From Pseudodesulfovibrio aespoeensis Aspo-2 (GTDB taxonomy: Bacteria > Desulfobacterota > Desulfovibrionia > Desulfovibrionales > Desulfovibrionaceae), in the NCBI RefSeq assembly GCF_000176915.2, contig NC_014844.1:806001-870000 (forward strand): a stretch of 64,000 nt of DNA, given 5' to 3'. Shown here one piece after another: positions 11,879 to 64,000 of the stretch. The translations under genes and the position numbers were made by a program. Below the pieces are notes generated by a model. That model did not search any database. It was not told the origin of the DNA and was given only the letters and a program-made list of their open reading frames with translations. Each line of letters begins with the position of its first letter. Positions within the stretch are counted from its first letter, which is position 1.

Positions 11879-12192
11879 TTGAAGAGGACCTGCTTGGCGG
11901 GCTCCTCGCACTCGGCGTCTTCAGGGAACCGGGCAAAGGGGAAGGGCCGGGCGTTGTCGTTGAGGGTGTTGTAGCGCATGAGCCGGTAGCCGTAATGAGA
12001 GAGCGAGTTGGTGAACCGGCGCAACGGCTCGCTGCGTTTTTTGGCTATCAGCAGATAGCCATACTGGAAGAGCACGGCCAGCTGGATGATGAATCCGGTC
12101 ACCTCGAAGAAGATCATGCACACCAGGGTCACCAGGAACCGCTTGAGGATGGCTCCCCTGTCCACAGTGGTTGATACCGTGTCGTTCGTCAT
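11875..12192 (-). CDS. DUF4389-type membrane protein
   Basis: This 105-residue protein has two hydrophobic stretches (about residues 19-32 and 34-48; RFLVTLVCMIFFEVTGFI and IQLAVLFQYGYLLIAK) followed by the conserved FTNSLSHYGYRLMRYNTLN segment of the DUF4389 family. A strong AAGGAGG ribosome-binding site precedes the ATG. It overlaps the Cys-rich gene by 4 bp, so the two form an operon. Members are small inner-membrane proteins of unknown role. Confidence 0.78.
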   Translation of the reverse strand: MTNDTVSTTVDRGAILKRFLVTLVCMIFFEVTGFIIQLAVLFQYGYLLIAKKRSEPLRRFTNSLSHYGYRLMRYNTLNDNARPFPFARFPEDAECEEPAKQVLFK

Positions 12193-12293
12193 GGTGCCTC
12201 CTTGGCAAAGGGGTTGTCCCCAGTCGGGGTTGTCCCGCGATCGGGGTGGTTGGGCGAGTCCGGGTCAGCCAGGGCGCGAGGCCCGGAGTCGGG

Positions 12294-14177
12294 CTAGGAG
12301 AATACGATCTCTCCGGCCCTGGCGTCCAGGGATATGGTAGAGCCTTCGGTCCTTTTTGAGACCGCAACGCTCTTGTTGCCGAAGATGATGACCACGCCGG
12401 GATGGATCAGCCGGTGGACCCTGATTCTGATGCCGGCCAGCTCCTCCTGCCGGGCCAGGGCGTTCTGGGTGAGCTCTTCGGACACGGCCTTGCGCTGCTT
12501 GATCAACGCTATCCGGTGCCTGAGGATCTCGGCCACGGCGGCGCGCTTTTCGGGCTTGGTGCGGGCCAGGATGACCCTGGCCGGGTCGTGGCCCAGGATG
12601 TCGTTGATCTTGCCGATGGAGTCCTTGAGCTTCTTGCGCTCGGCGCGCAGGGTTTCATCGCCGTCGTGGCCGATCTGCACGGCCACCGTGGTGCGCACCC
12701 CCAGCTCGGAGCCGAGTTCGTTGACCTCCATGCCCTTGCCGGTGACGATGTTGCCGCCCTGCACGTGGCCCTTGCCGCGGGTGCCGATGAGGCGCCCCTC
12801 GGCCCTGATCTCCGAGTTGGTGATGTCGTTGGTTATGATCACATCGCCGCCGGCGCTGATGCGGGCATTGGTGGCGTAGGCGGCGGAGATGGTGCCCTCG
12901 GCCCGGACAGATCCGCCGTCGGGCATGAGGATGCCGCCCGTGACCTCGATGTTGCCGCCCGCATGCACGGTGGCGCTCTCCACGGACCCGGCCACGATGA
13001 TGTGCTTGGGCGCGGCAACCGAGAATCCGGCGTGGATCGAGCCGAGGATCTTGACCGAGCCATGCTCCAGGGTGACGTTGCCTGTGGCGAGGTCCACGTT
13101 GTCGTTGATGATCAGGCAATCGGTGACCGAGAGGGTGGTTCCCTCCATGACCATGACGCCCTTGGCCGTGGAGGTGAAGGTGATCTCGTCCAGCAGCACC
13201 TCCACGTTTTCGCCCCGGCGGACTGTCAGATCCCTGCCCGAGCTGGCCGGGATGGTCTTGCCGTAGATGTCGATGCCGCCCTTGCCCGAAGTGGGGTGGT
13301 GCAGCCGGGCGATGGCCTGTCCCGGCTCCACATGCGGGTAGGTGCCCCGGTCGCGGAAGTTGAGCCTCCCGGCCTCGTCCTCTGTGCCTGCCAGTTCGCG
13401 CGTGGAGACCAGCGGTTCCAGCCAGCCGTCGTGCCCTGGCGCCGGGAGTTTGCCCATGACCACGGTCTGGTCCGTCAGGGGGCGTCCCAGGGACTGCGCC
13501 TGCTTGAGCAGCGCTTCGAGCCGAGCCACGTCGATGTCGATGACCACGCCGAGGTCGCGCAGTTCCTTTTCCAGCCGGGCGGCGGTCACGGGCTGGCCCC
13601 TGAAATCCCGGTGGTGCAGGGTGGCCTTGATCAAGACCGAGTCTTCGGAAATGTGCGTCACCGGGTCCACCGAGATGGTGGTTTCCTTGAGCCTGGCCAT
13701 GCCCCAGGCGCGGGACACATAGGAGTTGGTCAGGGGATCGAAGCCCACGTTGTCGCCCAGAGTCACCTCGATGTCCTCTGGCTCGAAATGTTTCTTGGGA
13801 TGGATGATGCGTCCGTCGATGGTCTCGCCGTCGCGGGCATGCTGCGGCGGGTGCTTGCGCGCGAACCTGTCGCCGGGAAACACCGGATATTCCAGGTTGC
13901 CCAGGGCCACGAGAGAGGCGTGGGAAGGCTCCTGCACCTCAATGCCGCGCACCAGCACCACACGGCGGATTTCCTCATCGCGCTGGATGGCGCTGATGAT
14001 TTCCCTGGCCGCTTCCTCGTCCACTGGCAGGCCCACCCCGGCCTTGGCCACCTGCCGCTTGAGCAGCGCCACAGAGGGGCCTTCCCCGCCCTGCGGCGGA
14101 GAGTAGCGGCTGACACCGAGCTTCATGCCGTCCTCGGACATGGCGAACCGGAATTGGGCGTCGCGGGGTTCTGCCAT
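12294..14177 (-). CDS. FapA (DUF342) family polymer-forming domain protein
   Basis: This is a large soluble protein of about 627 residues. The central third consists of repeated beta-helical turns such as LEHGSVKILGSIHAGFSV, GGNIEVTGGILMPDGGSVRAEG and GGDVIITNDITNSEIRAEG. The N-terminal part carries the FapA-type DIDVARLEALL and VEPGQAIARLH segments, and the C-terminal part has a long coiled coil. The family (flagellar assembly protein A, DUF342) is widespread, and its role in motility or polar organisation is only partly known. ATG 14177 is preceded by a GGGGG-type site; an upstream start at 14216 would add 13 residues. It stands alone on the minus strand. Confidence 0.88.
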   Translation of the reverse strand: MAEPRDAQFRFAMSEDGMKLGVSRYSPPQGGEGPSVALLKRQVAKAGVGLPVDEEAAREIISAIQRDEEIRRVVLVRGIEVQEPSHASLVALGNLEYPVFPGDRFARKHPPQHARDGETIDGRIIHPKKHFEPEDIEVTLGDNVGFDPLTNSYVSRAWGMARLKETTISVDPVTHISEDSVLIKATLHHRDFRGQPVTAARLEKELRDLGVVIDIDVARLEALLKQAQSLGRPLTDQTVVMGKLPAPGHDGWLEPLVSTRELAGTEDEAGRLNFRDRGTYPHVEPGQAIARLHHPTSGKGGIDIYGKTIPASSGRDLTVRRGENVEVLLDEITFTSTAKGVMVMEGTTLSVTDCLIINDNVDLATGNVTLEHGSVKILGSIHAGFSVAAPKHIIVAGSVESATVHAGGNIEVTGGILMPDGGSVRAEGTISAAYATNARISAGGDVIITNDITNSEIRAEGRLIGTRGKGHVQGGNIVTGKGMEVNELGSELGVRTTVAVQIGHDGDETLRAERKKLKDSIGKINDILGHDPARVILARTKPEKRAAVAEILRHRIALIKQRKAVSEELTQNALARQEELAGIRIRVHRLIHPGVVIIFGNKSVAVSKRTEGSTISLDARAGEIVFS

Positions 14178-48581: not shown

Positions 48582-49988
48582 TCAGGGCCTGGCTATGTTG
48601 TGGAGTTTGATCAGGGTATAGAGCCGGGCGCGGGAGAGGCCGGAGAGGGCGCAGGCGCGGCGGATGTCGCCGTTGGCCAGGTCCATCAGGCGCGCCAGGT
48701 AGTGCTGTTCGATGTGTGCGATCTGGTCGGCGCGGTATGTCTTGAGGTCCGGGAAGTGTTCGCGCTCGCCCATGGCGATGTCGTGGCCGGTTTCTGCCGG
48801 GTGCGGGTCTTCCATGGCGCGCCGGGCCACCCGCGAGCGGATCATCCGGGGCAGGTGGCGGGGATAGAGGATGTTCTCCCGTCCCGCCTTGTTGATGGCC
48901 TGCTCGATGGTGTTCATCAGTTCGCGGATGTTGCCGGGCCAGTCGTACTGCATGAGCGCGCCGAGGAAATCCGGCGAGAAGCCTTTGCTTTCCACCCGGA
49001 GCCGTTGGCAGTGCCGCCGGATGAAGTGGCAGGTCAGCTCGTTGATGTCTTCGGAGATGTCTCTGAGCGGCGGCAGCTGGAGGCGGGTGCCGTGCAGGCG
49101 GTAGAAGAGGTCGCGTCTGAAGTCGCCGCTGGCGACCATGGCTTCCAGGTCGCGGTTGGTGGCTGAGAGCAGCCTGAAATCGCTCACGATCTCTGTTGTC
49201 GCCCCCACCGGCCTGAAGCTGCGGCCCTCCAGGACGCGCAGGAACACGCGCTGGATGGGCAGCGGCAGCTCGCCGACCTCGTCCAGGAACAGCGTGCCGC
49301 CGTCGGCCTGCCTGACCAGACCGATGGCATGGGTGTCCGCGCTGGTGAAGGCTCCCCGCTCGTGGCCGAAGAGCAGGCTTTCGGCCAGGGTATCGGGCAG
49401 GGCCGCACAATCCACCACCACGAACGATTTCTTTCGGCGCGGGCTGTTCTCGTGGATGGCTCTGGCAAAGAGCTCCTTGCCTGTGCCGGTTTCGCCGATG
49501 ATCAGGACGTTGCTTTCCGAGGCAGCGGCCATGGCCACGCTGTCCAGGGCGGATTGCAGCGAACGGCTGTTGCCCACGATGCCGCCCCGGCGCAGCGACA
49601 CGGGCGGGCGGGCCGACCGCCGTTCCTGCTGATAGTCCGTGATCCGGCTGATGAGGACTGTCAGCCGCTGGATGTTGGGCGGCTTGGTCAGGTAGTCCCA
49701 GGCCCCGTCGCGGATGGTGCGCTCGGCTGTGTCCGGATCCCTGTTGCGCGAGACGAAGATGATCTCGGGAAAGGACGGAATTTCGCGGATGGTGGCGAGA
49801 CAGTCGAGGCTGTCCCTGTCCGAGAGGTCGTCGCCGAGCAGGACCACCCGGTAGTCGCCTGTGTGCAGCATGCCCATGGCGCGGGCCAGGGAATTGCAAC
49901 AGGCTGCCGACAGGTTGTGCCGGGCAAGGTCCTGTTCCAACCGGGCGGTGTAGGCGGTGTCGCCGTCAATGATCAGGATGTCGGACAC
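48582..49988 (-). CDS. sigma54-dependent activator with degenerate receiver domain
   Basis: This 468-residue NtrC-type regulator has an N-terminal receiver (1-118), an AAA+ domain (about 138-375) and a C-terminal Fis-type helix-turn-helix (IRRACALSGLSRARLYTLIK). The AAA+ domain shows the Walker A GETGTGKELFARAI, the Walker B-like GGTLFLDEVGELPLP, and the sigma54-contact loop as GAFTSA instead of GAFTGA. In the receiver the acidic cluster is only partly kept (IIDGD). A gap-free alignment puts Gly52 at the phospho-acceptor position (VVLLGDDLSDRDSL), although Asp53 follows. The Lys of LTKPP is present. The start is GTG with GAGGAG upstream. It lies upstream of and divergent from the Hdr operon and is its probable regulator. 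Confidence 0.9.
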   Translation of the reverse strand: MSDILIIDGDTAYTARLEQDLARHNLSAACCNSLARAMGMLHTGDYRVVLLGDDLSDRDSLDCLATIREIPSFPEIIFVSRNRDPDTAERTIRDGAWDYLTKPPNIQRLTVLISRITDYQQERRSARPPVSLRRGGIVGNSRSLQSALDSVAMAAASESNVLIIGETGTGKELFARAIHENSPRRKKSFVVVDCAALPDTLAESLLFGHERGAFTSADTHAIGLVRQADGGTLFLDEVGELPLPIQRVFLRVLEGRSFRPVGATTEIVSDFRLLSATNRDLEAMVASGDFRRDLFYRLHGTRLQLPPLRDISEDINELTCHFIRRHCQRLRVESKGFSPDFLGALMQYDWPGNIRELMNTIEQAINKAGRENILYPRHLPRMIRSRVARRAMEDPHPAETGHDIAMGEREHFPDLKTYRADQIAHIEQHYLARLMDLANGDIRRACALSGLSRARLYTLIKLHNIARP

Positions 49989-50860: not shown

Positions 50861-52891
50861 ATGGCTGAAAGGATCGGCGTATACATTTGTCATTGCGGCT
50901 CGAACATCGCGGGCAAGGTCGATTGCGCGGATGTCGCAGGCTTTGCCGGGCGGATCAGGAACGTGGCGGTCTCGCGCGACTACCAGTTCATGTGCTCGGA
51001 TCCGGGGCAGGAGATGATCATCAGGGACATCCGCGAATATGGCCTGAACCGCGTGGTGGTGGCGTCCTGCTCGCCGCGCCTGCACGAGAAGACCTTTCAG
51101 AAGGCGTGCGCCCGCGGGGGGTTGAACCCCTACCTGATGCAGCATGCCTGCATCCGCGAGCACTGCTCGTGGATCACCGCCGATCCGGTCGAGGCCACGG
51201 CCAAGGCCAAGCACATCGTGGAAGCCGCAGTGGAGCGGGTGGGTCGGCATCAGGAACTGTTTTCGCGCGAGGTGGACGTGCTGCCCGATGTCATGGTCGT
51301 GGGCGCGGGCATTGCGGGCATCCAGGCGGCGCTCGACATCGCCAAGTCCGGCCACCGGGTGCATCTGGTGGAAAAGGCGCCGTCCATCGGCGGGCACATG
51401 GCCCAGTTCGACAAGACCTTTCCCACCCTCGACTGCGCGGCCTGCATCTCGACCCCCAAGATGGTGGCCGTCTCGCAGGAGCCCAACATCAACCTCATGA
51501 CCTGGAGCGAGGTGGTGGACGTGTCCGGCTTTGTGGGCAACTACACGGTCACTGTCCTGCACAAGCCCCGCTACATCAACGCCAGCATCTGCACCGGGTG
51601 CGGGGCTTGCCTTGAGAAATGCCCGACCAAGGCGCCCAGCGAATTCAACGAGGGGCTTGGCACGCGCAAGGCCATCTACCGCAACTCGCCCCAGGCCGTG
51701 CCCAACACCCCGGTCATCGACGGGACCATCTGCCGCAAGATCACCAAGGACAAGTGCGGCCTGTGCCAGCAGATATGCCCCACCGGGGCCATCGACTACA
51801 CCATGCAGGAGAGCCGCGAGGTTTTTCATGTGGGCAGCGTTGTCCTGGCCACGGGCTACGACACCATGGACCCGACGCCCATGGCCGAGTACGGGTATGG
51901 CCGCTACGGCGAGGTCTATACCGCGTTGCAGTTCGAACGGCTGAACAATGCCGTTGGCCCTACCGGGGGCAAGATTGTCATGAAGAACGGGGAGTCCCCG
52001 GAGAGCGTGGCCATCATCCACTGCGTGGGCAGCCGCGACAGGAATTATCACGAATACTGTTCGCGCACCTGCTGCATGTACGCCCTCAAGTACGACCACC
52101 TGATCAAGGACAAGATCGGTCACCACGCCAAGGTCTACAATTTCTACATCGACATGCGCTGCTTCGGGAAGGGGTACGAGGAGTTCTACCGGCGCGTCCA
52201 GGACGAGGGCGTGACCTTCATCCGGGGCCGCCCTGCCGAGATCGTGCAGGAGAACGGCAAGCTGGTGGTGGTGGGCGAGGACACCCTGCTCAGCATGAAC
52301 GTGCGCGTGCCCGTGGACATGGTGGTGCTGTGCACGGCCATGGAGCCCAGGGCGGACATGCCCGAGGTGGCCCGCGTCTTTGGCGTGGCCCAGGGGCAGG
52401 ACGGGTTCTTCCTGGAGGAGCATCCCAAGCTCGGGCCGGTCTCGACAGCCACGGACGGCGTGTTCCTGGCCGGGGCCTGCCAGGGGCCAAAGGACATCCC
52501 GGACGCGGTCTCCCACGCCTCGGGCGGGGCGGCCCAGGCCCTGGCCCTGGCGGCCAGGGGCAAGGTCTCCATCTCCCCGACCACGTCGTGGATCAACCCG
52601 GACATCTGCATCGGCTGCAAGGTGTGCATTGGCCTGTGCGCCTACTCGGCCATCGAGTTCGACGAGCGCCGCCAGGTGTCGGTCATCAACGAGGCCATGT
52701 GCAAGGGATGCGGCAGTTGCGCCGGGTATTGCCCAAGCGGGGCGGCCCAGATCAAGCACTTCAACGAGAACCAGATATTCGACGAAATCGACGGGTTGCT
52801 GGGCATGATGCCCGGCATTCCGATCATGCCCGATGCTGCGGGAGCGGAACACGAGACGCAACTTCACGCCCGCGCGGGCGAACCGGCCTAG
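50861..52891 (+). CDS. hdrA: heterodisulfide reductase subunit A-like flavoprotein
   Basis: HdrA is the FAD-containing subunit proposed to bifurcate electrons in Hdr complexes. The 676-residue protein starts with the HdrA N-terminal domain (IGVYICHCGSNIAGKVD, VVVASCSPRLHEKTF). It then has the FAD motif VVGAGIAGIQAALDIA (about 146-161), the Cys segment LDCAACISTPKM, and the ferredoxin site CTGCGACLEKCP (244-255). A further Cys group follows in CGLCQQICP (299-307), and the conserved HCVGSRDRNYHEYCSRTCC. Two C-terminal 4Fe-4S sites are seen (CIGCKVCIGLC and CKGCGSCAGYCP). It is followed 9 bp later by mvhD, and together these resemble the HdrA-MvhD electron-entry module. Confidence 0.93.
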   Translation: MAERIGVYICHCGSNIAGKVDCADVAGFAGRIRNVAVSRDYQFMCSDPGQEMIIRDIREYGLNRVVVASCSPRLHEKTFQKACARGGLNPYLMQHACIREHCSWITADPVEATAKAKHIVEAAVERVGRHQELFSREVDVLPDVMVVGAGIAGIQAALDIAKSGHRVHLVEKAPSIGGHMAQFDKTFPTLDCAACISTPKMVAVSQEPNINLMTWSEVVDVSGFVGNYTVTVLHKPRYINASICTGCGACLEKCPTKAPSEFNEGLGTRKAIYRNSPQAVPNTPVIDGTICRKITKDKCGLCQQICPTGAIDYTMQESREVFHVGSVVLATGYDTMDPTPMAEYGYGRYGEVYTALQFERLNNAVGPTGGKIVMKNGESPESVAIIHCVGSRDRNYHEYCSRTCCMYALKYDHLIKDKIGHHAKVYNFYIDMRCFGKGYEEFYRRVQDEGVTFIRGRPAEIVQENGKLVVVGEDTLLSMNVRVPVDMVVLCTAMEPRADMPEVARVFGVAQGQDGFFLEEHPKLGPVSTATDGVFLAGACQGPKDIPDAVSHASGGAAQALALAARGKVSISPTTSWINPDICIGCKVCIGLCAYSAIEFDERRQVSVINEAMCKGCGSCAGYCPSGAAQIKHFNENQIFDEIDGLLGMMPGIPIMPDAAGAEHETQLHARAGEPA

Positions 52892-52900
52892 GAGGCTGTC

Positions 52901-53326
52901 ATGCGCAACGAGTTCGAACCGACCATACTGGCCTTTGTCTGCAACTGGTGCACCTACACGGCGGCGGATCTTGCCGGGACCTCCCGCATGGTCCAGCAGC
53001 CCAACCTGCGGCTGGTGCGGATGATGTGCACCGGCATGGTGGACCCCAAGTACATCGTCAAGTCCCTGCTCTCCGGGGCGGACGGCGTGCTCGTCAGCGG
53101 CTGCCATCCCGGCGACTGCCACTACATCAACGGCAACTACAAGGCCCGGCGCAGGATCAAGCTCTTAAACGAAATCCTGCCCCAGTTCGGCATCGACAAG
53201 GGCCGCGTCAAGCTGACCTGGGTCGGGGCCAGCGAGGGCAATGAATTCGCGGCCACGGTGAACCATTTCATCAACGAGATCAGAGAACTCGGTCCCATGG
53301 AAGCGCGTTCCATGGCCGTGGTCTAA
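52901..53326 (+). CDS. mvhD: MvhD-like iron-sulfur electron transfer subunit
   Basis: This 141-residue protein belongs to the MvhD family (hydrogenase iron-sulfur subunit delta). It binds a [2Fe-2S] cluster and links an electron donor to HdrA. Family motifs are AFVCNWCTYTAADLAG, VRMMCTGMVDPKYIVKSLLSGADGVLVSGCHPGDCHYINGN and LTWVGASEGNEFAATV. In methanogens its partner is a hydrogenase or formate dehydrogenase. Here no hydrogenase follows, but an FdhB/FrhB-like protein does. The spacing to both neighbours is under 30 bp. Confidence 0.94.
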   Translation: MRNEFEPTILAFVCNWCTYTAADLAGTSRMVQQPNLRLVRMMCTGMVDPKYIVKSLLSGADGVLVSGCHPGDCHYINGNYKARRRIKLLNEILPQFGIDKGRVKLTWVGASEGNEFAATVNHFINEIRELGPMEARSMAVV

Positions 53327-53350: not shown

Positions 53351-54493
53351 ATGGCGACCACAGCGAAGATACAGGTGGAAGGAAACAATCCGGTCTTGGC
53401 CCTCCAGGGCTTTCTGAAGGGGTTGCTGGGCGACGAATCCATCGGCGGTGTGCTGGTGTCGGTCCACCATTTTGGCAAGGGCATGCCCATGCCGACCCTG
53501 GTGACCGATCCGGCGCAGCTCTCTGGCGCGGACCCGCTGGCCCCGGCCTTTCCCATGAACAGCGCCAAGCTCCTGTCCCGCCTGACGCGCGGCCAGGCGG
53601 GCGAGCGCATCGCGGCGGTCATGCGTCCGTGCGAGATCAGGGCGTTTGTCGAGCTGGTCAAGCTCAACCAGGGCAGCCTCGATAACGTCATCCTGGTGGG
53701 CATGGACTGTCTGGGGGCCTACGACAACGTCAACTACAAGCTGTTTCTGGGCGATCAGGACCCGTTTGCCGCCACCCTTGGTTTTCATGGCGTGAACGGG
53801 GTCGGCGTGTCCGCCGGAGGGGTCGAGATAGCCAACGCCTGCAAGGCGTGCGAGCACCCGTCGCCGACCAACGCGGACATCGTCATCGGCGTTGCCGGGG
53901 CGGACCTGCGCGAGAGCATCCCGGTCATGGCCACCAGCGCGCGCGGCGAGGCGTTGCTCAGCGCGCTGAATCTGCCGGAAATCCAGTCCACCAACGGGCG
54001 CGACAAGGCCCTGGCCGCCCTGGTGGAGGCCAGGACCGTCTACCGCGACGCCATGATCGAGCAGACCAAGAGTGTGACCGGCACCCTGACCGACCTGTCC
54101 GAGTACCTTGCGGGCTGCGTCAACTGTTACAACTGCCGGGTGGCCTGCCCGGTCTGCTACTGCAAGGAGTGCGTCTTCAACACCGATGTCTTCGAGCACA
54201 AGCCGTGGCAGTACGTGGAGTGGGCCAAGCGCAAGGGCAGCCTCAAGATGCCCACGGATACCATCTTTTACCACCTGACGCGCATGGCGCACATGAGCAT
54301 GGCCTGCGTCGGATGCGGGCAGTGTTCCAACGCCTGTCCCAACGACATCCCGGTCATGGAGCTGTTCAGGACGGTTGCCGCGCGGACCCAGGCGAGCTTC
54401 GACTACGAGCCGGGGCGCAGCCTGGACGAGCCTCCGCCCATGTCGGTGTTCAAGGAGGACGAGTTCCAGGACACGGTGTCGCACATGGTCTGA
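53351..54493 (+). CDS. FdhB/FrhB-like iron-sulfur protein
   Basis: This 380-residue protein resembles the beta subunit of coenzyme F420 hydrogenase/formate dehydrogenase. The central part has AAVMRPCEIRAFVELVKLNQGSLDNVILVGMDCLG, typical of the FrhB/FdhB C-terminal domain. The C-terminal part has the Cys-rich segment CVNCYNCRVACPVCYCKECVF (near 256) and a classic 4Fe-4S site CVGCGQCSNACP (near 318). Such subunits usually carry FAD and pass electrons from NAD(P)H, F420H2 or formate modules to MvhD/HdrA. No catalytic formate dehydrogenase or hydrogenase subunit is encoded in the operon, so the donor is unknown. ATG 53351 follows AAAGGGG. Confidence 0.85.
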   Translation: MATTAKIQVEGNNPVLALQGFLKGLLGDESIGGVLVSVHHFGKGMPMPTLVTDPAQLSGADPLAPAFPMNSAKLLSRLTRGQAGERIAAVMRPCEIRAFVELVKLNQGSLDNVILVGMDCLGAYDNVNYKLFLGDQDPFAATLGFHGVNGVGVSAGGVEIANACKACEHPSPTNADIVIGVAGADLRESIPVMATSARGEALLSALNLPEIQSTNGRDKALAALVEARTVYRDAMIEQTKSVTGTLTDLSEYLAGCVNCYNCRVACPVCYCKECVFNTDVFEHKPWQYVEWAKRKGSLKMPTDTIFYHLTRMAHMSMACVGCGQCSNACPNDIPVMELFRTVAARTQASFDYEPGRSLDEPPPMSVFKEDEFQDTVSHMV

Positions 54494-54520: not shown

Positions 54521-57500
54521 ATGAGAAAGCAATACGGCGCATTGGTGGTCGGAGCGGGTATAGGCGGCATCCGGGCCGCCCTGGATCTGGCCGTCACCGG
54601 CCACAAGGTCGCGCTCATCGACAGGCGGCCAAACCACGGCGGCATCCTGAGCCAGCTCGACCACCAGTTCCCGTCGGACCATTGCGGCATGTGCAAGATG
54701 CTGCCGCTCATGGCGCGCGATTCGTCGAGCCAGTTCTGCCTGCGCAAGGGGTTATTCCACGACAACATCGACATCATGCTCTCCACCGAGCTGGTGGAGC
54801 TTGAGGGCGAGCCGGGCAAGTTCTTCGTGTCCCTCAGCCGCAAGTCCACGCTGATCGACCCGGCCAGGTGCGTCAGTTGCGGCAAGTGCTCGGAGGTCTG
54901 CCCGGTGCGGGTGCCGAGCGAGTACAACGCCGGGCTGACCATGCGGGCCGCCGTGCATCTGCCGGTGCCTCACGCCATCCCCAACCACTACGTGGTCGAC
55001 CTCGAAAACTGCCAGCGGTGCTGGAAGTGTCACGAGGCGTGCCCCACCGGAGCCATTGACTTCAAGTTCGACGAGCGCAAGGACTTCCACATCCTGGTGG
55101 CGGACAGCGATCCGGCGGTGGCGGCCATGATCAGGGAGAGTCTGGGCGAGCAGAACTTCCCCCTGCATTTCGCCGCTTCGGGCAGCGAGGCCGTGGACAT
55201 GCTTGCCGAAGGGAGTGAGGCCGGAGGCGGGCGCATCAGGCTGACGCTGCTGGGCATGAATCTGGACGACATGGGCGCGGACCGCGTGCTGACGCGTTGC
55301 CGCGAGCTGCGGCCCGACATGCCCGTGGTGCTCCTGGCCGAGCCGGAACAGGCGGAACAGGCCGCCGAACTGGTCATGCAGGGCGCGCGCGAACACCTGA
55401 CCAAGCCCCTGTCGGCCAAGCGGTTCGTGCCCTGGCTCGACAAGCTCTACATGCGCATCATGTCCGACACGGTGGAGGAGCTTGAGGTCGGGGCCGTGGT
55501 CCTGGCCGGCGGGTTCGAGTGCTACAATCCGGTCATGGACCCGGAGGGCGGCCAGGATGTGTGGTGCTACGACCACCCCGGCGTGCTCACGGCGGTGGAG
55601 TTCGAGCGGCTGCTCAGCCACGCCGGACCGACTGGAGGCCGCCTGCTCAGGCCGGGCGACAACGCCCCGGTGCGCAAGATCGCCTGGATACAGTGCGTGG
55701 GCTCGCGCGATGTGCAAAAGGGCGCGGATTTCTGCTCGGCGGTGTGCTGCATGTTCTCCATCAAGGAGGCCGTGCTGGCCAAAAAGGCCGCGGCCGGCGA
55801 CCTGGACGCCACCATCTTCTACATGGACATGCGGACCACGGGCAAGGGGTACCAGCGGTATCGCAACCGGGCTGAGGCCGAGGATGGCGTGCGCTTCGTG
55901 CGCAGCAGGCCTCACTCTGTCGTGCCTGCTCCGGACGGCAAGGGGCTGAAGATCGAGTTCATGACCGACGACGGCGCGCTGGTCGAGGAAATCTACGACA
56001 TGGTCGTGCTGGCCGCCGGGGCTCGCCCGCCCCGCGGCATGGACAAGTTCGCCCTGACCGCGGGCCTGGACCTCAACGAATGGGGATTCGTGCAAACCCA
56101 GCCCTACGCCCCGGAGCGGACCAGCCGCGTGGGCGTGTTCTCGGCAGGCGCGTTCGGCGAGCCCAAGGACATCTCGGAGTCGGTCATCCAGGCCGGCGCC
56201 GCAGCCTCGGCTGCGTCGCGGATCATCAAGATCTACGACGTGCTGGCCGGGATCGGCGGCGAGCCGGAGCCATCCTACCCCGACGTGTCCAGGGAGCCGC
56301 CCCGGACCTTTGTGGCCGTGTGCGCCTCCTGCCCCACCCTTGAGCTGGCCGTGGACCTGGACGCCCTGAGCCAAAGGCTGGCAACGGTCCATTCCGTGTG
56401 CAAGGTGGTGGCCGTGGGCAGCGCCTGCACCCATGCGGGCTGGAAGGACATCGAGCGCGGCGTGGCCGAGTTCAAGCCCAACCGGGTGCTGATCGGCGCG
56501 TGCATGCCCTATGCCTACATCCCCCGCCTCAAGGAGCTTGGCCGGGCCATCGGGTTGAATCCCGCCCTCATGGACGTGGTGGACATCTACAGCCCCACCT
56601 TTGACATGGGCCGGGACGACGACCCGGAGAGGCCGGACAGGACCATCAAGGCCGAAAAGGAGATTTACGCCGCCCTGGCCACTGCCGTGGCCCGGCTCCA
56701 GGGTGCGGACCCGGTGCCGCCGCCGACCATGGTGGACGTGGCCCGGTCCGCCCTGGTGGTGGGCGGCGGACTGGCCGGCATGACCGCGTCCATGTCCATC
56801 GCGGACCAGGGATACGGCGTCTGTCTGGTGGAGTCCGAGGAGGAGCTTGGCGGCATGGCCATGCGGCTGCACACGCAGCTCGACGGCACGGACCCGCGCA
56901 AGTTCATGGAGGAGCTGATTGGCCAGGTGGAGAAGCATCCGAACATCAAGGTGTTCAAGGACTCGCGCGTGGTGCTCTCGCGGGGCAGCGCCGGACGGTT
57001 CCGCTCGGCCATCGCCAGCCCGCGGGGGGTCTTTCCCCTGGAGCACGGCGTGACCATCCTGGCCACGGGCGGGCATGAGGCCAAGGTGTATGAGAGCGGC
57101 CTGTGTGTCCACAAGTCGGTCATGACCCATCTGGCCATGGAAGAGGGGCTGGCCAGCGGCACCATCGACGCCGGGGCGCTGGGGTCGGTGGTCATGATCC
57201 AGTGCTGGCGCGCGCCCGACGAGGACCGCAAGTATTGCAGCCGGGTCTGCTGCCCGGAGATGCTCAAGAACGTCCTCACCCTCAAGGAGCGCAACCCGAA
57301 TCTGCCCATCTACGTGTTCTACCGCGACATCATGACCCAGGGGTTCCTTGAGACCTACTACACCAAGGCGCGCAAGGCCGGGGCCATCTTCATCCGCTAC
57401 GATTCCGACACCAGGCCTGTGGTCACCTTCGAGGAAGGCAGGCCTGTGGTCACGGGACGCGATCCGGTCCTGGGCGCCGAGGTCCGGTTCAGGCCCGATC

Positions 57501-57994
57501 TCCTCTCCCTTTCGAGCGGCTTGGAGCCCAACGACGTGGAGGAACTGCTTGAAATCTTCGGGGTGGAGATCGACGGGGACGGCTTCTACCGCGAGGCGGA
57601 CTTCAAGTGGCGGCCCGTGGATTTCCTCAAGCAGGGCCTCTACATGTGCGGCATCGCCCACTCGCCCCGGCGCATGGACGAGACTATCGCCTCGGCCAAG
57701 GCTGCGGCCCAGCGCGCCCTGCGTATCCTCAACGCCGAGAAGATCACCCGCGAGACCGTGGTGGCCCAGGTGCGCCACTCCCTGTGCTCCCTGTGTCAGG
57801 CGTGCGTGGCGGCCTGCCCCTATGGCGCGCGCTCCCTGGACATGGACGCCGGGCGCATCGCGGTGGACGAGATACTCTGCCAGGGGTGCGGGGCGTGCGC
57901 GGCCGTGTGCCCCAACAGCGCGACCATACTCAAGGGATTCCACGACGGGCCGATGATGTCGGTCATCGACGCGGCCCTGGAAGAACCGGCATAG
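54521..57994 (+). CDS. double HdrA-like flavoprotein with embedded pseudo-receiver domain
   Basis: This 1157-residue protein joins two HdrA-like units. Unit 1 has an FAD motif (VVGAGIGGIRAALDLA, 9-24), Cys segment HCGMCKM (54-60), and 4Fe-4S sites CVSCGKCSEVCP (117-128) and CQRCWKCHEACP (164-175). A receiver-like domain (about 189-312; HILVADSDPAVAAMIRESLG, then TLLGMNLDDMGADRVL and LTKPLS) interrupts it. Gly245 replaces the phospho-acceptor Asp. The rest of unit 1 follows, with QCVGSRDVQKGADFCSAVCC (391-410). Unit 2 has an HdrA N-terminal-like part (597-690), a second FAD motif (VVGGGLAGM, 746-754), the variant QCWRAPDEDRKYCSRVCC and two final 4Fe-4S sites (1089-1099, 1120-1130). It probably acts as a second flavin site of the Hdr complex. 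Confidence 0.9.
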   Translation: MRKQYGALVVGAGIGGIRAALDLAVTGHKVALIDRRPNHGGILSQLDHQFPSDHCGMCKMLPLMARDSSSQFCLRKGLFHDNIDIMLSTELVELEGEPGKFFVSLSRKSTLIDPARCVSCGKCSEVCPVRVPSEYNAGLTMRAAVHLPVPHAIPNHYVVDLENCQRCWKCHEACPTGAIDFKFDERKDFHILVADSDPAVAAMIRESLGEQNFPLHFAASGSEAVDMLAEGSEAGGGRIRLTLLGMNLDDMGADRVLTRCRELRPDMPVVLLAEPEQAEQAAELVMQGAREHLTKPLSAKRFVPWLDKLYMRIMSDTVEELEVGAVVLAGGFECYNPVMDPEGGQDVWCYDHPGVLTAVEFERLLSHAGPTGGRLLRPGDNAPVRKIAWIQCVGSRDVQKGADFCSAVCCMFSIKEAVLAKKAAAGDLDATIFYMDMRTTGKGYQRYRNRAEAEDGVRFVRSRPHSVVPAPDGKGLKIEFMTDDGALVEEIYDMVVLAAGARPPRGMDKFALTAGLDLNEWGFVQTQPYAPERTSRVGVFSAGAFGEPKDISESVIQAGAAASAASRIIKIYDVLAGIGGEPEPSYPDVSREPPRTFVAVCASCPTLELAVDLDALSQRLATVHSVCKVVAVGSACTHAGWKDIERGVAEFKPNRVLIGACMPYAYIPRLKELGRAIGLNPALMDVVDIYSPTFDMGRDDDPERPDRTIKAEKEIYAALATAVARLQGADPVPPPTMVDVARSALVVGGGLAGMTASMSIADQGYGVCLVESEEELGGMAMRLHTQLDGTDPRKFMEELIGQVEKHPNIKVFKDSRVVLSRGSAGRFRSAIASPRGVFPLEHGVTILATGGHEAKVYESGLCVHKSVMTHLAMEEGLASGTIDAGALGSVVMIQCWRAPDEDRKYCSRVCCPEMLKNVLTLKERNPNLPIYVFYRDIMTQGFLETYYTKARKAGAIFIRYDSDTRPVVTFEEGRPVVTGRDPVLGAEVRFRPDLLSLSSGLEPNDVEELLEIFGVEIDGDGFYREADFKWRPVDFLKQGLYMCGIAHSPRRMDETIASAKAAAQRALRILNAEKITRETVVAQVRHSLCSLCQACVAACPYGARSLDMDAGRIAVDEILCQGCGACAAVCPNSATILKGFHDGPMMSVIDAALEEPA

Positions 57995-58010: not shown

Positions 58011-58580
58011 ATGAGCGAAGTGAAGACAAGGACATGGAGCCCGGCGACAGACGAATACCAGGCCGTGCTGGCCGGACTGCGGGACATGGTGGGGGCGTGC
58101 ATGCAGTGCGGCACCTGCACCGCGTCCTGCCCCAACTGGCACGCCATGGATGTGTCCCCGCGCCGCATGTGGCGGATGATCCAGTTCGGCATGCTCGACG
58201 AGATCCTGGAGAGCCGGACCTTCTGGCTGTGCTCGTCATGCTACATGTGCACCCTGCGCTGCCCGCGGGGGCTCAAGCTGACCTCGGCCATGGGCGCGCT
58301 CAAGCGGTTGGCGCGGCTCGACGGATCAAGGCAGGCCAGGCGCAACGGGGCCTTCTACGAGGCGTTCATGGCCGATGTGGAGGCCAACGGGCGGCTCCAG
58401 GAGGCGAGCATGATGCAGGGCTATTTCCTGCGGCGCATGGACCCGAGGCTGCCCCTGTCCTTTCTGCCCCTGGGGCTGAAGATGCTCGGCAAGGGCAAGC
58501 TGCACCTGCCGAACCATGCCCAGCGCGGACGGCTCGGACCCATGTTTGCCAAGGTCAGACAGATGGAGGCGGGATCATGA
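58011..58580 (+). CDS. hdrC: heterodisulfide reductase subunit C-like iron-sulfur protein
   Basis: HdrC passes electrons from HdrA to HdrB. The 189-residue soluble protein has two 4Fe-4S sites, CMQCGTCTASCPNW (near 30-41) and CSSCYMCTLRCPRG (near 73-84), with the family's SPRRMWRMIQFGMLDEIL between them. The C-terminal 90 residues are basic and helical. The stop overlaps the start of hdrB (ATGA). Confidence 0.93.
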   Translation: MSEVKTRTWSPATDEYQAVLAGLRDMVGACMQCGTCTASCPNWHAMDVSPRRMWRMIQFGMLDEILESRTFWLCSSCYMCTLRCPRGLKLTSAMGALKRLARLDGSRQARRNGAFYEAFMADVEANGRLQEASMMQGYFLRRMDPRLPLSFLPLGLKMLGKGKLHLPNHAQRGRLGPMFAKVRQMEAGS

Positions 58581-59587
58581 AGTACGCATACTACCCCGGC
58601 TGCTCGCTCATGGAGAGCGCGCGCGAATTCGATGTCTCGGTCCGGGCGGTCATGGACAGGCTCGGCGCAGAGCTGATCGAGATTCCGGACTGGACGTGCT
58701 GCGGGGCGAGCGCGGCCGAGCCGGTCAGCAAGCTCATGAACTACGCCCTGCCAGCCCGCAACTTGGCCATTGTCCAGGACGAGCTGCCGGGCCTGGACGT
58801 GCTCGCCCCGTGCAGCGCCTGCTACCTCAACCTGCTCAAGGTCAACCGCGAGGTGGTGGGCGAGCGGCATCTGCATGGCCGGGTCAACGAGGTGCTGGCC
58901 GCATCCGGCCTGACCTACCGGGGCGAGGTGAACGTGCGCCACCTGCTGGACGTGCTGCTCAACGACGTGGGCGCGGGGATCATGGCCCAGAAGGTGACTC
59001 GCGGTCTGGAGGGCATGAAGCTCGCGCCCTACTATGGCTGCCAGATTCTTAGGCCCTATCCCGTGTTCGACTCGCCGGGCAGGCCCACCTCCATGGAGCC
59101 GATCATCCGGGCCATGGGCGGGCAGGTGCATGAATGGGACTGCGGCAACCGGTGCTGCGGCGCGTCGCTCATGGTCGGCCACCGCGACGTGGCGCTGCAC
59201 TCCGTGGCCGCGATCCTCGATCAGGCCGACGGGGCAGACGCCGTGGTTACGGTCTGCCCCCTGTGCCAGATGAATCTCGAAGCCTACCAGGGCCAGGCCG
59301 TCAGGGCGGGGGGCCGCCGGGTGCCGGTGCTCTACCTGACGCAGGTCATGGGGCTGGCCCTGGGCCTGGACGAGGAGGCCGTGCAGCTGGGCAAGAACCT
59401 GAGCCTGAACGCCGGAGCCAGACACGGCATTGAAACGCGGGCCTGGAGCCTTGGGCTTCAGGCCGAAGATGCCGAGTCCGGCCAGGGGGGTCCGGGCGAG
59501 CCCCGGCCAGATCGGCCAGACCGGCCAGACCGGCCAGACCGGCCAGAAAAGAAGAGTAACCTCAACAAGGGAGCGAATCATGTTTAA
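58577..59587 (+). CDS. hdrB: heterodisulfide reductase subunit B-like CCG-domain protein
   Basis: HdrB carries the catalytic noncubane [4Fe-4S] clusters that reduce disulfides. The 336-residue protein has two CCG motifs: TCCGASAAEP with the later CSACY, and RCCGASLMVGH with CPLCQ, fitting the CX(31-39)CCGX(35-36)CXXC pattern. It starts KYAYYPGCSLMES as usual. The last 50 residues are an unusual tail of DRP repeats (DRPDRPDRPDRPEKK) encoded by 9-bp tandem repeats, not seen in classical HdrB. The last codons overlap the following usp start. Confidence 0.92.
   Translation: MKYAYYPGCSLMESAREFDVSVRAVMDRLGAELIEIPDWTCCGASAAEPVSKLMNYALPARNLAIVQDELPGLDVLAPCSACYLNLLKVNREVVGERHLHGRVNEVLAASGLTYRGEVNVRHLLDVLLNDVGAGIMAQKVTRGLEGMKLAPYYGCQILRPYPVFDSPGRPTSMEPIIRAMGGQVHEWDCGNRCCGASLMVGHRDVALHSVAAILDQADGADAVVTVCPLCQMNLEAYQGQAVRAGGRRVPVLYLTQVMGLALGLDEEAVQLGKNLSLNAGARHGIETRAWSLGLQAEDAESGQGGPGEPRPDRPDRPDRPDRPEKKSNLNKGANHV
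59504..59547 (+). repeat. 9-bp tandem repeat in the hdrB 3' end
   Basis: Five units of CGGCCAGAN (CGGCCAGAT, three CGGCCAGAC, final CGGCCAGA) lie in frame and encode the Asp-Arg-Pro tail of HdrB. The repeat could expand or contract without frameshift. Confidence 0.85.
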
Positions 59588-60482
59588 GGACATCATCGTC
59601 GGCGTCACGCCGTCCGGCGTGGACAAGTGCGCGGTCATGGCGGCTGCGGAGTTCGCCAGGAAGTTCGAGGCAAAGCTCTACCTGACCCACGTGGCGGGCA
59701 TGGCCCAGGGCTGGGGCTCCATGGAACACCTCGAACCCTCGGGTGAGACTGAGCGGATCAAGAGCCAGATAGAGGAGATGTACAGCGACCTCCTGAGCGG
59801 CATCGCGGAGTACCAGATCAACGTCATTCCGGGTATCCCCCACGCCGAGATACTGCGGCTGGCCCGCAAGAAGAACACCGACCTCATCGTCATGGGACCG
59901 CACACCAAGGAATACGAGGAAAAGCGGTCCAAGATGTGGGGCATGGCGGGCAGCACCCTGGAGCGCGTCAGCCAGAAGGCCCGCTGCCCGGTCATGATCG
60001 TGCACAAGGACGTGGCCTGCAAGGACCCGCTGTTCGAGAACATCCTGGTGGCCACTGACTTCTCGGATCAGGCCGAGTGCGCCGTGAACTACGGCGGCCA
60101 GATGGCCCGCCAGTACAAGGCGAACCTGACGGTCATGCACGTGGTCGAGCCCGGCGTGAGCGCGGGCGACGTCGAGGCCCGCCTGGCAAACGAATACGGC
60201 CCGCGTCTGGATGGCGTGCCCGGATGCTCGTTCGGTGTCTGTAGCGGCCAGCCGCCCATGGAGATCCTGCGCATGGCGCAGCAGAAGCGGGCCGACCTGA
60301 TCATCATGGCCCACCACTCCAAGGAGATGGACCCGGAGAAGGCGTTTCTCGGTTCCACGGTGGTCCAGGTGGCCCTCAACGGGGCCTGCCCGACCATGAG
60401 CGTCAACCGCCACTTCGATCTGCGCTGCGGCCTGATGTACGATCAGGCCGGCCAGGTCGTGCAGACCGAGGCCACAGTCTAG
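59580..60482 (+). CDS. tandem universal stress protein
   Basis: This 300-residue protein has two USP domains (about 1-145 and 150-290). Each begins with the DIIVGVTPS / NILVATDFSD strand and ends with SQKARCPVMIV / ALNGACPTMSV. The ATP-binding loops GPHTKEY and the second FLGSTVVQV are recognisable, although the first loop lacks the full G-2x-G-9x-GS pattern. USP proteins act in stress or starvation, often through nucleotide binding. ATG 59580 overlaps the end of hdrB and is preceded by AGGGAG. Its place inside the Hdr operon suggests a regulatory or sensor role for that complex, by inference only. Confidence 0.9.
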   Translation: MFKDIIVGVTPSGVDKCAVMAAAEFARKFEAKLYLTHVAGMAQGWGSMEHLEPSGETERIKSQIEEMYSDLLSGIAEYQINVIPGIPHAEILRLARKKNTDLIVMGPHTKEYEEKRSKMWGMAGSTLERVSQKARCPVMIVHKDVACKDPLFENILVATDFSDQAECAVNYGGQMARQYKANLTVMHVVEPGVSAGDVEARLANEYGPRLDGVPGCSFGVCSGQPPMEILRMAQQKRADLIIMAHHSKEMDPEKAFLGSTVVQVALNGACPTMSVNRHFDLRCGLMYDQAGQVVQTEATV

Positions 60483-60541: not shown

Positions 60542-61861
60542 ATGGACATGGTCATTCCAAAGCCGATGGATGTCGGGGTGCGCGACTTCCTGAACCGGTT
60601 CGACTTCAGCGCCTGCATGATCTGCGGGACATGCTCCAACGGCTGCCCGGTCACCGGCACGCCCGGCATGGGGGGCTGGGACACGCGCAAGGTCATGCGC
60701 ATGCTCGCCTATGGGATGGTGGACGAGGTCGTGGACTCGAAATTCCCGTGGTTGTGCACCGGCTGCGGGCGGTGCGCCTATTCCTGCCCCATGGGCATCG
60801 ACATCCCGGCGGTCATGGGCCACATGAAGAGCCTGCGTGACCGCGACAAGGTGCCGGGATCGCTGCACAAGGGCATGGCCAACAACCTGGAGACCGGCAA
60901 CAACCTCGCCATCTCCAAGGAGGAGTATCTCTCAGGCATGGCCGAACTGGGCGTGGAGATGGCCGAGGAGTGCCCCGGCTTCTTTGTCCCGGTGGACAAG
61001 CAGGACGCCAAGGTGTTGTTCTTCCCCAATTCCAAGGAGGTCTACGGCGATTTCGAGGACCAGTACTGGTGGTGGCGGATCTTTTACGCGGCCAAAGAGG
61101 ACTGGACCGTGCCATCCGAGGGCTGGGAGGCCGTGGACTGGGCGCTCTTCACCGGCAACTACGCGGGCAACAAGAAGCTGGCCAAGCGCAAGATCGACTA
61201 CATGAAGCAGCACAACATCGAGCGCATGATCATGCCCGACTGCGGCGGCGGTTCCTACGGCTGCCGCAAGGGCATGGACACCTGCGTGCTGGAGGACCCC
61301 AACAACGAGGTCGGGTTCATCTACCTCTATGATTACCTGGTCCAGGTCATCCGCGAGGGCCGCGTCAAGCTCGACAAGTCGGTCAACGCGGGCAGGCGGT
61401 TCACCTGGCACGACTCGTGTAAGCATGGCCGCGAGCTGGCCCGCCACTTCGGCAAGGGGTTTTATGACGAGCCGCGCTGGATCGTCAGGCAGTGCGTGGA
61501 CGACTTTGTCGAGATGTCGCCGGACCGGGGGCTCAACTACTGCTGCGGCGGGGGCGGCGGCATGTGGCCCATGCCCTTTGAGGACGAATCCGCCTGGCAT
61601 GCCCGGCACAAGTACGACCAGATCAAGCGCAGCGGCGCGGACGTGGTGGTGGTCGGCTGCTCCAACTGCCGCGACCAGATCATGAAGCGCATCCCCAAGT
61701 ACTACAAGGACTACAAGTACGAGGTGAAATACCTCTGGCAATTGGTGGCCGAGACCCTGATCCTCGAACCCTGGGAGCAGGACATGGTGGCCCGGGCCGA
61801 GGCCGCGGCCAAGGCCCAATGGGAGCGGCTGGGCGTGGAGCTGGACACGACTGAATACTGA
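60542..61861 (+). CDS. HdrD-like iron-sulfur oxidoreductase with CCG domain
   Basis: This 439-residue protein has two N-terminal 4Fe-4S sites, CMICGTCSNGCP (25-36) and CTGCGRCAYSCP (72-83). The catalytic region has HDSCKHGRELARHFG, the CCG motif in LNYCCGGGGGMWPMP (near 335) and CSNCRDQI. This layout is that of HdrD or lactate/glycolate-oxidase-type Fe-S proteins, which use noncubane clusters for disulfide chemistry. It may be a soluble variant acting with, or alternative to, HdrB. The ATG follows AAGGAG, 59 bp after usp. It is the last gene of the operon, before a strong terminator. Confidence 0.88.
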   Translation: MDMVIPKPMDVGVRDFLNRFDFSACMICGTCSNGCPVTGTPGMGGWDTRKVMRMLAYGMVDEVVDSKFPWLCTGCGRCAYSCPMGIDIPAVMGHMKSLRDRDKVPGSLHKGMANNLETGNNLAISKEEYLSGMAELGVEMAEECPGFFVPVDKQDAKVLFFPNSKEVYGDFEDQYWWWRIFYAAKEDWTVPSEGWEAVDWALFTGNYAGNKKLAKRKIDYMKQHNIERMIMPDCGGGSYGCRKGMDTCVLEDPNNEVGFIYLYDYLVQVIREGRVKLDKSVNAGRRFTWHDSCKHGRELARHFGKGFYDEPRWIVRQCVDDFVEMSPDRGLNYCCGGGGGMWPMPFEDESAWHARHKYDQIKRSGADVVVVGCSNCRDQIMKRIPKYYKDYKYEVKYLWQLVAETLILEPWEQDMVARAEAAAKAQWERLGVELDTTEY

Positions 61862-61954: not shown

Positions 61955-64000
61955 TTACTTCTTGGTGGCGCCATACCCCAGCGGCAGTGTCTTGAAGCGG
62001 CCTCCCGAGAGGATCGGGTCGTCCTTGTAGCCGAGCTTCTTGAAGTCGATGTAGTCCGTGGTGCCGATCAGGGAGCCGACATCGCGTCCCTTGAGCCGCA
62101 GGTGTTCGAAGTCAGCGCCTTTTTCCACCAGTTCGCGGAACTTGGCGTTGCGGCCATCCTGGTGGCAGCGGTCGCAGGTGCGATCGCCCTTGAGGCTCGT
62201 GTGGCATTGCACGCAGGACAGGGCGTGCTCCTTGGGCATGACTTCATGCTCGATGCGCCAGTACATGTTCGTGGCGACCCACATGTACTCGCCGCTGTAG
62301 GGCAGCTTGGCCTTTTTCATGCCTTCCTCGAAGGCAGCCTGCCAATCCGCGCTCACCCAGAATGCCGTTTTGTCTTCCTTGTCATAGGGGAACGTGTGGG
62401 GGACAAGCAGATGCCGATGCTCGGCATCGGCGGGCTGGATGGCGGCCATGATCTTGAAGGGCGTGATCTTGGAGTGCGGGTCCTTCATCGAGCCGATGGG
62501 TTCGGTGATGTTGGTCTTCACCAGGGCGCGCTTCTGCGCATAGGTCAGTTCCTCGCCCGGCCTGAAGCCCACGGCGTCGGGGTTGATGGTGTCGCCCAGG
62601 ACGTGCCGCTTCATGAATCCGTTGTACCACGCGTATTCCGGCTTGGCGGATTCCTTCCACTCAAAGGTTCCCTTCATCCAGTTGTAATCCTCCTTGCCGT
62701 ACTTGTCCTTCTGGGCCTTGCGATCCCTGTCTCCGGCAGTGGACCAGTCCCACCATGTCTTGGTGGCGAGGCATTTGGAGTATACGGGCGAGTGGCAGGT
62801 GTTGCAGCCCACCGTGTCGCAATGCTTGTTCAGGTGATGGTCGAGCAGGCTGTCGCCGTAGTGCGGGGCCGAGGTGTGGCAGTCCTCGCAGGCGCGGGAC
62901 CCCTCGACCACCGGGGCGGACGTGGAGCGGCCCGATATCTTGTGATTTCGGGTTTGATGGCATTCCACGCACTGGAAGTCATACCCGCCCATGTGGATGT
63001 CGCAGTCGCGGCTGGGCCAGTTCAGTTCCGAGCTCATGTCCGCGTGCTTGACCGCGTCGCCGCCGCCGCCGCTGAAGTGGCAGGTGCCGCACGAACTGCG
63101 GCTGGTGGGGCCGACATTTTGCGCCACATGGGGCAGATCGACCTTGGGGTCGGGCATGCCCGCCTTGGGCGGCGCCTTGACGTAACTGCCGGTGGTGTCA
63201 TGGCAGACCAGGCAGTCGATGTTTTCGGTTTTGCTGAAGTCGAAGGTGTCGTCCTTCCAGCCGTATCCGGCATGGCATGACGTGCAGCGGGCCTCGTTGC
63301 TGAGGATGGAGATGCAGAAGTTGTTGATCGTTGTCGTTCCCTTGCCCGACATGACGTCCTTCCTCTGCTCGGTCGTAAAGGGCGAAGGGCCGCGCCACAG
63401 CCAATGGGCCGAGGTCAGCATGTCCTTGCCCGCGTCCTCGTGGCAGCGCAGGCACTCCTTGGTCACTTCCTGAGGTGTGGGGTTGGCCGGGAGCTTGACC
63501 AGTTCCTTGTGATCCACAGGACGCGTGGCATGGCATCCTTCGCAACTGACCGGCCCCTTCTTCATGTCGGCATGACACCCCATGCACTGGATGTGGTAGG
63601 CGGCCTTGAGGCCGAGGCGCTCCTGGTCGCCGCCAGAAAACGCCTCCTGGTGACAGGATCTGCAGGCCACGGTTTCAGCAGCCTCGGGGTCGGCGGGACG
63701 GTAATGGTGACACGCCGCGCAGTCTCCGTCCAGCGATGCCGCATGCTTTGCGTGCATGAACCGCACCGGGCCATACTTTTTGTCGTAGGTGTCGACGTAG
63801 GGGCTGTCGAGAAGGATGTAGCTGCGCTTGATATCCTTGAACCCGATGTCAATGTTGCGCAGCCGCTGTTGCCTGAGCGGCAGGTCCTCCATGAGCACCT
63901 TCTCCACATACGGATACGTTTTCCTGGCCAGTTCTTCGGCCTCCTGCTGATCCGGAGCCACCCAGCCTTCCGGCTTGGGGGTCAGGTCCTTTCTGGATTT
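61955..64000 (-). CDS. 13-heme c-type cytochrome of the octaheme tetrathionate reductase family, 5' end missing
   Basis: The minus-strand frame stays open to the window edge, so the N-terminus and signal peptide lie outside. At least 681 residues are visible. An N-terminal module has four heme sites (CAACH, CRSCH, CMGCH, CEGCH) resembling a class III cytochrome. It is followed by nine more: CLRCH, CTSCH, CLVCH, CGTCH, CVECH, CEDCH, CNTCH, CVQCH and CDRCH. The segment CTSCHAGYGWKDDTFDFS...CLVCHD, and CGTCHFSGGGGDAVKHAD, match the octaheme tetrathionate reductase (OTR) family. It would be periplasmic and could reduce tetrathionate, nitrite or hydroxylamine, or simply wire electrons. It is convergent with the Hdr operon. 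Confidence 0.88.
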   Translation of the reverse strand, partial: KSRKDLTPKPEGWVAPDQQEAEELARKTYPYVEKVLMEDLPLRQQRLRNIDIGFKDIKRSYILLDSPYVDTYDKKYGPVRFMHAKHAASLDGDCAACHHYRPADPEAAETVACRSCHQEAFSGGDQERLGLKAAYHIQCMGCHADMKKGPVSCEGCHATRPVDHKELVKLPANPTPQEVTKECLRCHEDAGKDMLTSAHWLWRGPSPFTTEQRKDVMSGKGTTTINNFCISILSNEARCTSCHAGYGWKDDTFDFSKTENIDCLVCHDTTGSYVKAPPKAGMPDPKVDLPHVAQNVGPTSRSSCGTCHFSGGGGDAVKHADMSSELNWPSRDCDIHMGGYDFQCVECHQTRNHKISGRSTSAPVVEGSRACEDCHTSAPHYGDSLLDHHLNKHCDTVGCNTCHSPVYSKCLATKTWWDWSTAGDRDRKAQKDKYGKEDYNWMKGTFEWKESAKPEYAWYNGFMKRHVLGDTINPDAVGFRPGEELTYAQKRALVKTNITEPIGSMKDPHSKITPFKIMAAIQPADAEHRHLLVPHTFPYDKEDKTAFWVSADWQAAFEEGMKKAKLPYSGEYMWVATNMYWRIEHEVMPKEHALSCVQCHTSLKGDRTCDRCHQDGRNAKFRELVEKGADFEHLRLKGRDVGSLIGTTDYIDFKKLGYKDDPILSGGRFKTLPLGYGATKK

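Follow-up and report, generated by a model that had tools for sequence, protein, structure and literature searches.

The window analysed here is a stretch of 64,000 nucleotides from Pseudodesulfovibrio aespoeensis Aspo-2 (NC_014844.1, positions 806,001 to 870,000), and it holds a tight forward-strand operon in the order HdrA1, MvhD, FrhB-like, double HdrA, HdrC, HdrB, USP and HdrD-like. HdrA1 (50861-52891) is a normal-size HdrA of 676 residues that scores 785 bits with the HdrA2 model and is without the NfnB insert carried by its relatives. It is followed by an MvhD/FlpD-type 2Fe-2S subunit (52901-53326; PF02662, E 3.4e-52) and a FrhB-like subunit of 380 residues with a 4Fe-4S dicluster (53351-54493; PF04432 and PF13183). 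Downstream of the double HdrA come a HdrC-like protein (58011-58580; TIGR03290, E 1e-22, below the curated cut-off), a HdrB-like protein with two CCG domains (58577-59587; PF02754, and TIGR03288 with an E-value of 1.4e-44, below the cut-off), and, from profile matches, a double universal stress protein or USP (59580-60482) and a HdrD-like protein related to HmcF, TmcB and DsrK (60542-61861). As predicted from its genes, the window provides for both branches of bifurcation, that is for ferredoxin and for a disulfide-type acceptor. Profile matches also place an NtrC-type sigma-54 regulator on the reverse strand (48582-49988), which is syntenic with the operon and whose receiver in the window is without the acceptor Asp (LLGDD). 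Convergent with the operon lies an octaheme cytochrome of the tetrathionate reductase family (61955-63961; TIGR04315, 482.7 bits, above the cut-off).

The double HdrA is encoded by an open reading frame of 1157 residues (54521-57994, forward strand) that starts at an ATG with GGAGG upstream. We drew its domain boundaries from Pfam, from phmmer searches against PDB chains and from an AlphaFold2 model, with structure alignment and conservation among relatives as further guides. The first part of half 1 (residues 1-183; 54521-55069) carries the FAD dinucleotide motif GAGIGG at residue 11, the Cys197-type residues C55 and C58, and an inserted ferredoxin domain with cysteines at 117-127 and 164-174. 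The second part (residues 318-590; 55472-56290) is the remainder of the thioredoxin-reductase-like FAD domain with the cluster cysteines C392/405/409/410, and between the two sits a receiver domain, REC (about residues 188-310; 55082-55450), which the initial annotation had overlooked. A HdrA N-terminal-like domain follows (residues 591-735; 56291-56725), then the FAD domain of half 2 (residues 740-1075; 56738-57745), with GGGLAG at residue 748 and the cluster cysteines C895/906/910/911, and finally a double 4Fe-4S ferredoxin domain at the C-terminus (residues 1085-1140; 57773-57940) with sites at 1089-1099 and 1120-1130. The initial annotation had read this gene as a head-to-tail HdrA fusion adjoining a separate normal HdrA, with two FAD motifs, at least four 4Fe-4S sites and a HdrA-N-terminal-like domain between the flavin parts. 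All of this holds: both motifs are invariant or nearly so among relatives, four Fer4 sites are found, residues 591-752 correspond to the N-terminal domain of HdrA, and HdrA1 lies upstream. Its count of three flavins per protomer is plausible, taken as three HdrA-type flavins per set. We would predict three further clusters, at C392/405/409/410, at C895/906/910/911 and at C601/636/661 together with C55 or C58, which would bring the chain to about seven.

The AlphaFold2 model of the double HdrA (40 sequences) has a mean pLDDT of 86.1 and a pTM of 0.86, and a second model, of the relative L025, has the same architecture (pLDDT 86.2, pTM 0.85). When aligned with VIA-align, residues 4-573 fall on HdrA 151-576 with Z 26.2 (418 aligned residues, rmsd 1.8, 37% identity), and residues 592-1157 fall on HdrA 2-654 with Z 32.9 (550 aligned residues, rmsd 9.4, or 3.6 on 7bkd). 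Because the second half aligns to a whole HdrA, the second flavin domain is not collapsed at the level of the fold. The N-terminal domain, the FAD domain with its inserted ferredoxin and the C-terminal ferredoxin of HdrA are thus all present, divided between the halves. We call the protein HdrA-like by fold and not an equivalog, given that it scores 621.6 bits, and HdrA1 785 bits, against the curated whole-protein cut-off of 1100 bits for NF040770 (HdrA2-type), a model that includes a fused MvhD which in the window is a separate gene.

The division of parts between the halves is the same throughout the 75 double HdrAs that we compared. The N-domain cysteines C601, C636 and C661 are present in all 75, and C55 and C58 of half 1 are present in all 70 that have a residue there. 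Only half 1 has the inserted ferredoxin cysteines and only half 2 has the C-terminal ferredoxins; half 2 has neither an inserted ferredoxin nor equivalents of HA5 and HA6. This is the complementary arrangement of N-domain and Cys197 by which Chadwick et al. recognize a fused heterodimeric HdrA, with C55/C58 in half 1 only and C601/C636/C661 in half 2. In the published HdrA model the arm of one protomer serves the FAD of the other protomer, so that with complementary halves the double HdrA can be read as a covalent pseudo-dimer that makes up one complete bifurcation unit. The initial annotation instead saw two bifurcation sites in series, a reading which we reject as the main one and consider very improbable. 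Each half has an intact FAD fold and an intact GxGxxG motif, the motif of half 2 being present in 75 of 75, and the four-cysteine site beside the flavin is kept by both halves in every double HdrA. Additionally, the arm of HdrA1 could in principle feed half 2, and such a pairing could give a second working unit, which counts against the one-unit reading. However, half 1 has no arm, and half 2 is without the inserted ferredoxin and without the conserved Asp of the half-1 GEPKD motif, in place of which it has S, N, T or R; the replaced Asp would fit an altered site for the accessory flavin. Counted over both halves, the domains yield a single unit of the kind described in the published model.

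The receiver itself is recognized by PF00072 with an E-value of 2.4e-10 in the window (41 bits against a cut-off of 30.2) and of 2.5e-31 in L025. It is predicted to fold into five beta-alpha units with a pLDDT of about 90, and the same is seen in the L025 model. The assignment rests on profile, sequence and predicted secondary structure, and whole-model fold searches returned only flavoproteins among the matches listed. In the 5odc alignment the insertion point lies between HdrA residues of about 311 and 316, at the junction by which the chain returns from the inserted ferredoxin domain to the FAD domain. A chance or low-quality match is ruled out by the E-value in relatives, and an assembly artefact is ruled out since the insertion stands in one open frame across dozens of genomes. 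It was found in 15 of 395 genomes of a phylum sample and, counted as the fusion, in 33 of 149 of a family sample; these counts are not independent, because some loci are duplicated between collections (e.g. L031/L120 and L075/L129).

A tree of the 75 double HdrAs, built with the receiver columns excluded, argues for a single origin of the insertion in the sampled sequences. The node of the REC-bearing group has a support of 99 and the clade with degenerate receivers a support of 100, and the three states of no receiver, canonical receiver and degenerate receiver need two changes, which is the minimum possible. Just outside the REC-bearing group branch relatives that share the operon but have no receiver (L071, L073, L074 and L078). 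As the tree comes from a quick search with a midpoint root, the direction of change is likely rather than proven. Among the REC-less relatives, the double HdrA of L080 (9992-14422; 1477 residues) contains an NfnB-like module (Fer4_20 and Pyr_redox_2, residues 156-548) about where the others have the receiver, which makes an insertion hot spot possible; the double HdrA of L083 has a similar length. In L072 (7228-10281) the double HdrA is split into two reading frames of 566 and 428 residues.

A phosphorylatable receiver has an acid pair, an acceptor Asp, a Thr or Ser, and a Lys. This quintet, D-D-D-T-K, is intact in 42 of 42 receivers outside the Desulfovibrionales and in none of the 16 inside; the window has D-S-G-A-K. 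The family sample agrees, with the quintet kept in 0 of 31 receivers examined and the acid pair always broken. Conservation of the whole domain follows the same line. Canonical receivers have a mean pairwise identity of 70.7%, compared to 71.7% for the first FAD/ferredoxin segment and 57% for the other flavin parts. In the Desulfovibrionales the receiver is the least conserved of all segments (47.9% against 60-79%), and its dN is the highest of all segments in five of five comparisons with the window. The low identity and high dN point to relaxed constraint on a domain that is still kept. From these residues we infer that phosphorylation has been lost in the Desulfovibrionales, the window included, and that the receiver is there a relaxed relic, probably with a structural role.

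HdrA1 also differs between these groups. It has about 1125-1150 residues in canonical loci and about 670-770 in the Desulfovibrionales. The HdrA1 of L025 (4667-8047) has an NfnB-like insert at residues 292-695 (4ylf_B, E 1.3e-96), and the window HdrA1 is 67-70% identical to it on either side of the gap. HdrA1 of the REC-less L072, L074 and L078 is also long enough to hold a putative insert (1124-1249 residues), which makes loss of NfnB in the Desulfovibrionales the simpler reading. The loss of NfnB and the loss of the quintet each amount to a single event on one branch, which leaves their correlation with an n of 1. In L071 (2095-8378) the HdrA1 region is rearranged, with NuoE-like, NuoF-NfnB-like and Fer2-containing chains.

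Looking at operons with at least 4.5 kb of downstream sequence, we found a same-strand histidine kinase starting within 5 kb in 24 of 35 canonical, 1 of 17 degenerate and 4 of 13 REC-less operons. In a Pfam check of seven canonical kinases and that of the REC-less L074, all had PAS and HATPase_c, and all except L074 had HisKA. Adjacency is not universal, as 11 of the 35 canonical operons have no such kinase, and the immediately downstream kinases are mostly in one clade. The REC-less L071 and L074 have a downstream kinase as well, thus the synteny is not specific to the receiver. In the window lineage (the window, L009, L010, L011/L017, L019 and L021) there is no kinase in the flanks examined, and this lineage alone also lacks the acceptor Asp of the sigma-54 regulator; in other Desulfovibrionales the regulator is intact with a kinase beside it. 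Inserted receivers of the Desulfovibrionales group with their own sigma-54 receivers with a support of 0.80, which we set aside as possible long-branch attraction. Receivers also occur elsewhere in these operons. A stand-alone receiver gene lies upstream of HdrA1 in L023 (1860-2288), and likewise in many canonical loci (L025, L026, L044, L047, L053 and others). In the USP gene of L118 (genome G333; 11707-13017) the two USP domains are separated by a receiver that is 59% identical over 162 residues, flanking linker included, to the HdrA receiver of the same genome, and looks like a copied cassette.

The reading that we prefer, to which we give a probability of about 0.55, is that the double HdrA is a covalent asymmetric pseudo-dimer with one bifurcation unit, and that its receiver ancestrally gated the low-potential output and is a relic in the Desulfovibrionales. 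HdrA1, MvhD, the FrhB-like subunit, the double HdrA, HdrC and HdrB would form a Hdr-type bifurcating complex. Mapping the halves onto the arm and flavin roles, half 2 would be the electron-input arm, through its N-terminal and C-terminal FeS domains, and half 1 would carry the working FAD, the cluster toward HdrCB and the inserted ferredoxin as low-potential exit, so that each chain would have a single bifurcation unit plus an accessory flavin. The ancestor of the REC-bearing group would have gained the receiver at the point of return from the exit ferredoxin domain to the FAD domain. Most lineages would have a working phosphoreceiver, probably addressed by the operon-linked PAS histidine kinase, and phosphorylation may gate the output of low-potential electrons by shifting the arm with the exit ferredoxin, or its partner. 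In the Desulfovibrionales the receiver would persist without being phosphorylatable. Since the window receiver is degenerate, the gating claim rests on the relatives. Its specific form, that in Desulfobacterales, Syntrophobacterales and related MAGs the operon kinase phosphorylates the receiver at the low-potential exit and switches ferredoxin reduction on or off, so that a two-component system would act directly on the Hdr complex as its output, is tentative and falls somewhat short of even odds.

The conserved quintet could also serve the opposite direction of signaling. The receiver may act as a reporter, in which the redox state of HdrA alters a receiver that competes with the NtrC-type regulator for a shared kinase as a phosphate sink and so informs transcription. 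Of 48 receiver matches in G390, the one that most resembles the inserted receiver, apart from itself, is the operon-adjacent NtrC-type regulator (113.6 bits, the next being 96.6), canonical inserted receivers are sister to the operon-type NtrC regulators with a support of 0.99, and an intact quintet is compatible with a sink. However, many canonical loci have no NtrC-type regulator in the flank examined and a sink does not require insertion at the electron exit, thus we consider this unlikely. We think it rather unlikely that the receiver everywhere has a purely structural role, as a spacer or as a module that docks, for instance, the USP or an FeS partner protein. The Desulfovibrionales do keep the length and place of the domain without its phosphosite, the last helix is conserved (VPWLDKLYMRIMSD), and dN is below dS among the near relatives of the window. 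A spacer, however, needs none of the five phosphorylation residues kept in 42 of 42 canonical receivers, and where these are lost the receiver is the least conserved segment.

To our knowledge, little is known of how bifurcating enzymes are switched to match need. The conserved receiver and frequent kinase neighbour in relatives suggest that energy-saving electron splitting could be switchable by phosphorylation, with the window copy lacking the site. Given a receiver in the catalytic chain with a strongly conserved phosphosite and a kinase linked to it, whether bifurcation is controlled after translation would become a directly testable question. The Desulfovibrionales offer a natural loss series, of the receiver site and then of the kinase and regulator site.

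Among known systems, QmoA and QmoB of sulfate reducers are two HdrA-like flavoproteins that act together as separate, membrane-linked chains. We know of no receiver in either of them, and matches at 3.27 Mb of the window's own genome may be QmoA/QmoB. Methanogen HdrABC (5odc, 7bkb and 8rvu) shares with the window system the fold, the FAD site, the FeS cysteines and the MvhD and HdrBC partners, but its HdrA is a homodimer of chains of about 650 residues without a receiver. By sequence the inserted receiver is closest to receivers of the NtrC family (1zy2, 4l4u and 1ntr) and to the operon-adjacent sigma-54 regulators; the output of that family is a DNA-binding sigma-54 activator, whereas here it would be a redox enzyme. 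The fused complementary HdrA is already known and the inserted receiver is the new part, a predicted phosphoreceiver that Desulfobacterota-type genomes conserve and that has degenerated in the window; we found no published description of HdrA with a receiver or response regulator in the literature searched, although an earlier one may exist. According to the available sections of PMC9012536, HdrA3 and HdrA4 of ANME and the HdrA of the Moorella thermoacetica MetFV-HdrABC-MvhD complex are fused proteins with complementary N-domain and Cys197, forming intramolecular heterodimers, and like them the double HdrA has two complementary HdrA units per chain. The N-terminal domain lies in the first half of ANME HdrA3/4 and in the second half here, and those sections mention no receiver in the fused HdrAs of ANME or Moorella. 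The same sections describe ANME-1 proteins, HdrA9-11, whose ferredoxin region holds an NfnB insertion, of the same kind as in the HdrA1 of the window's relatives. Compared with HdrA9-11, the window HdrA1 is without NfnB, and the second foreign domain of the present system is the receiver, carried by the double HdrA.
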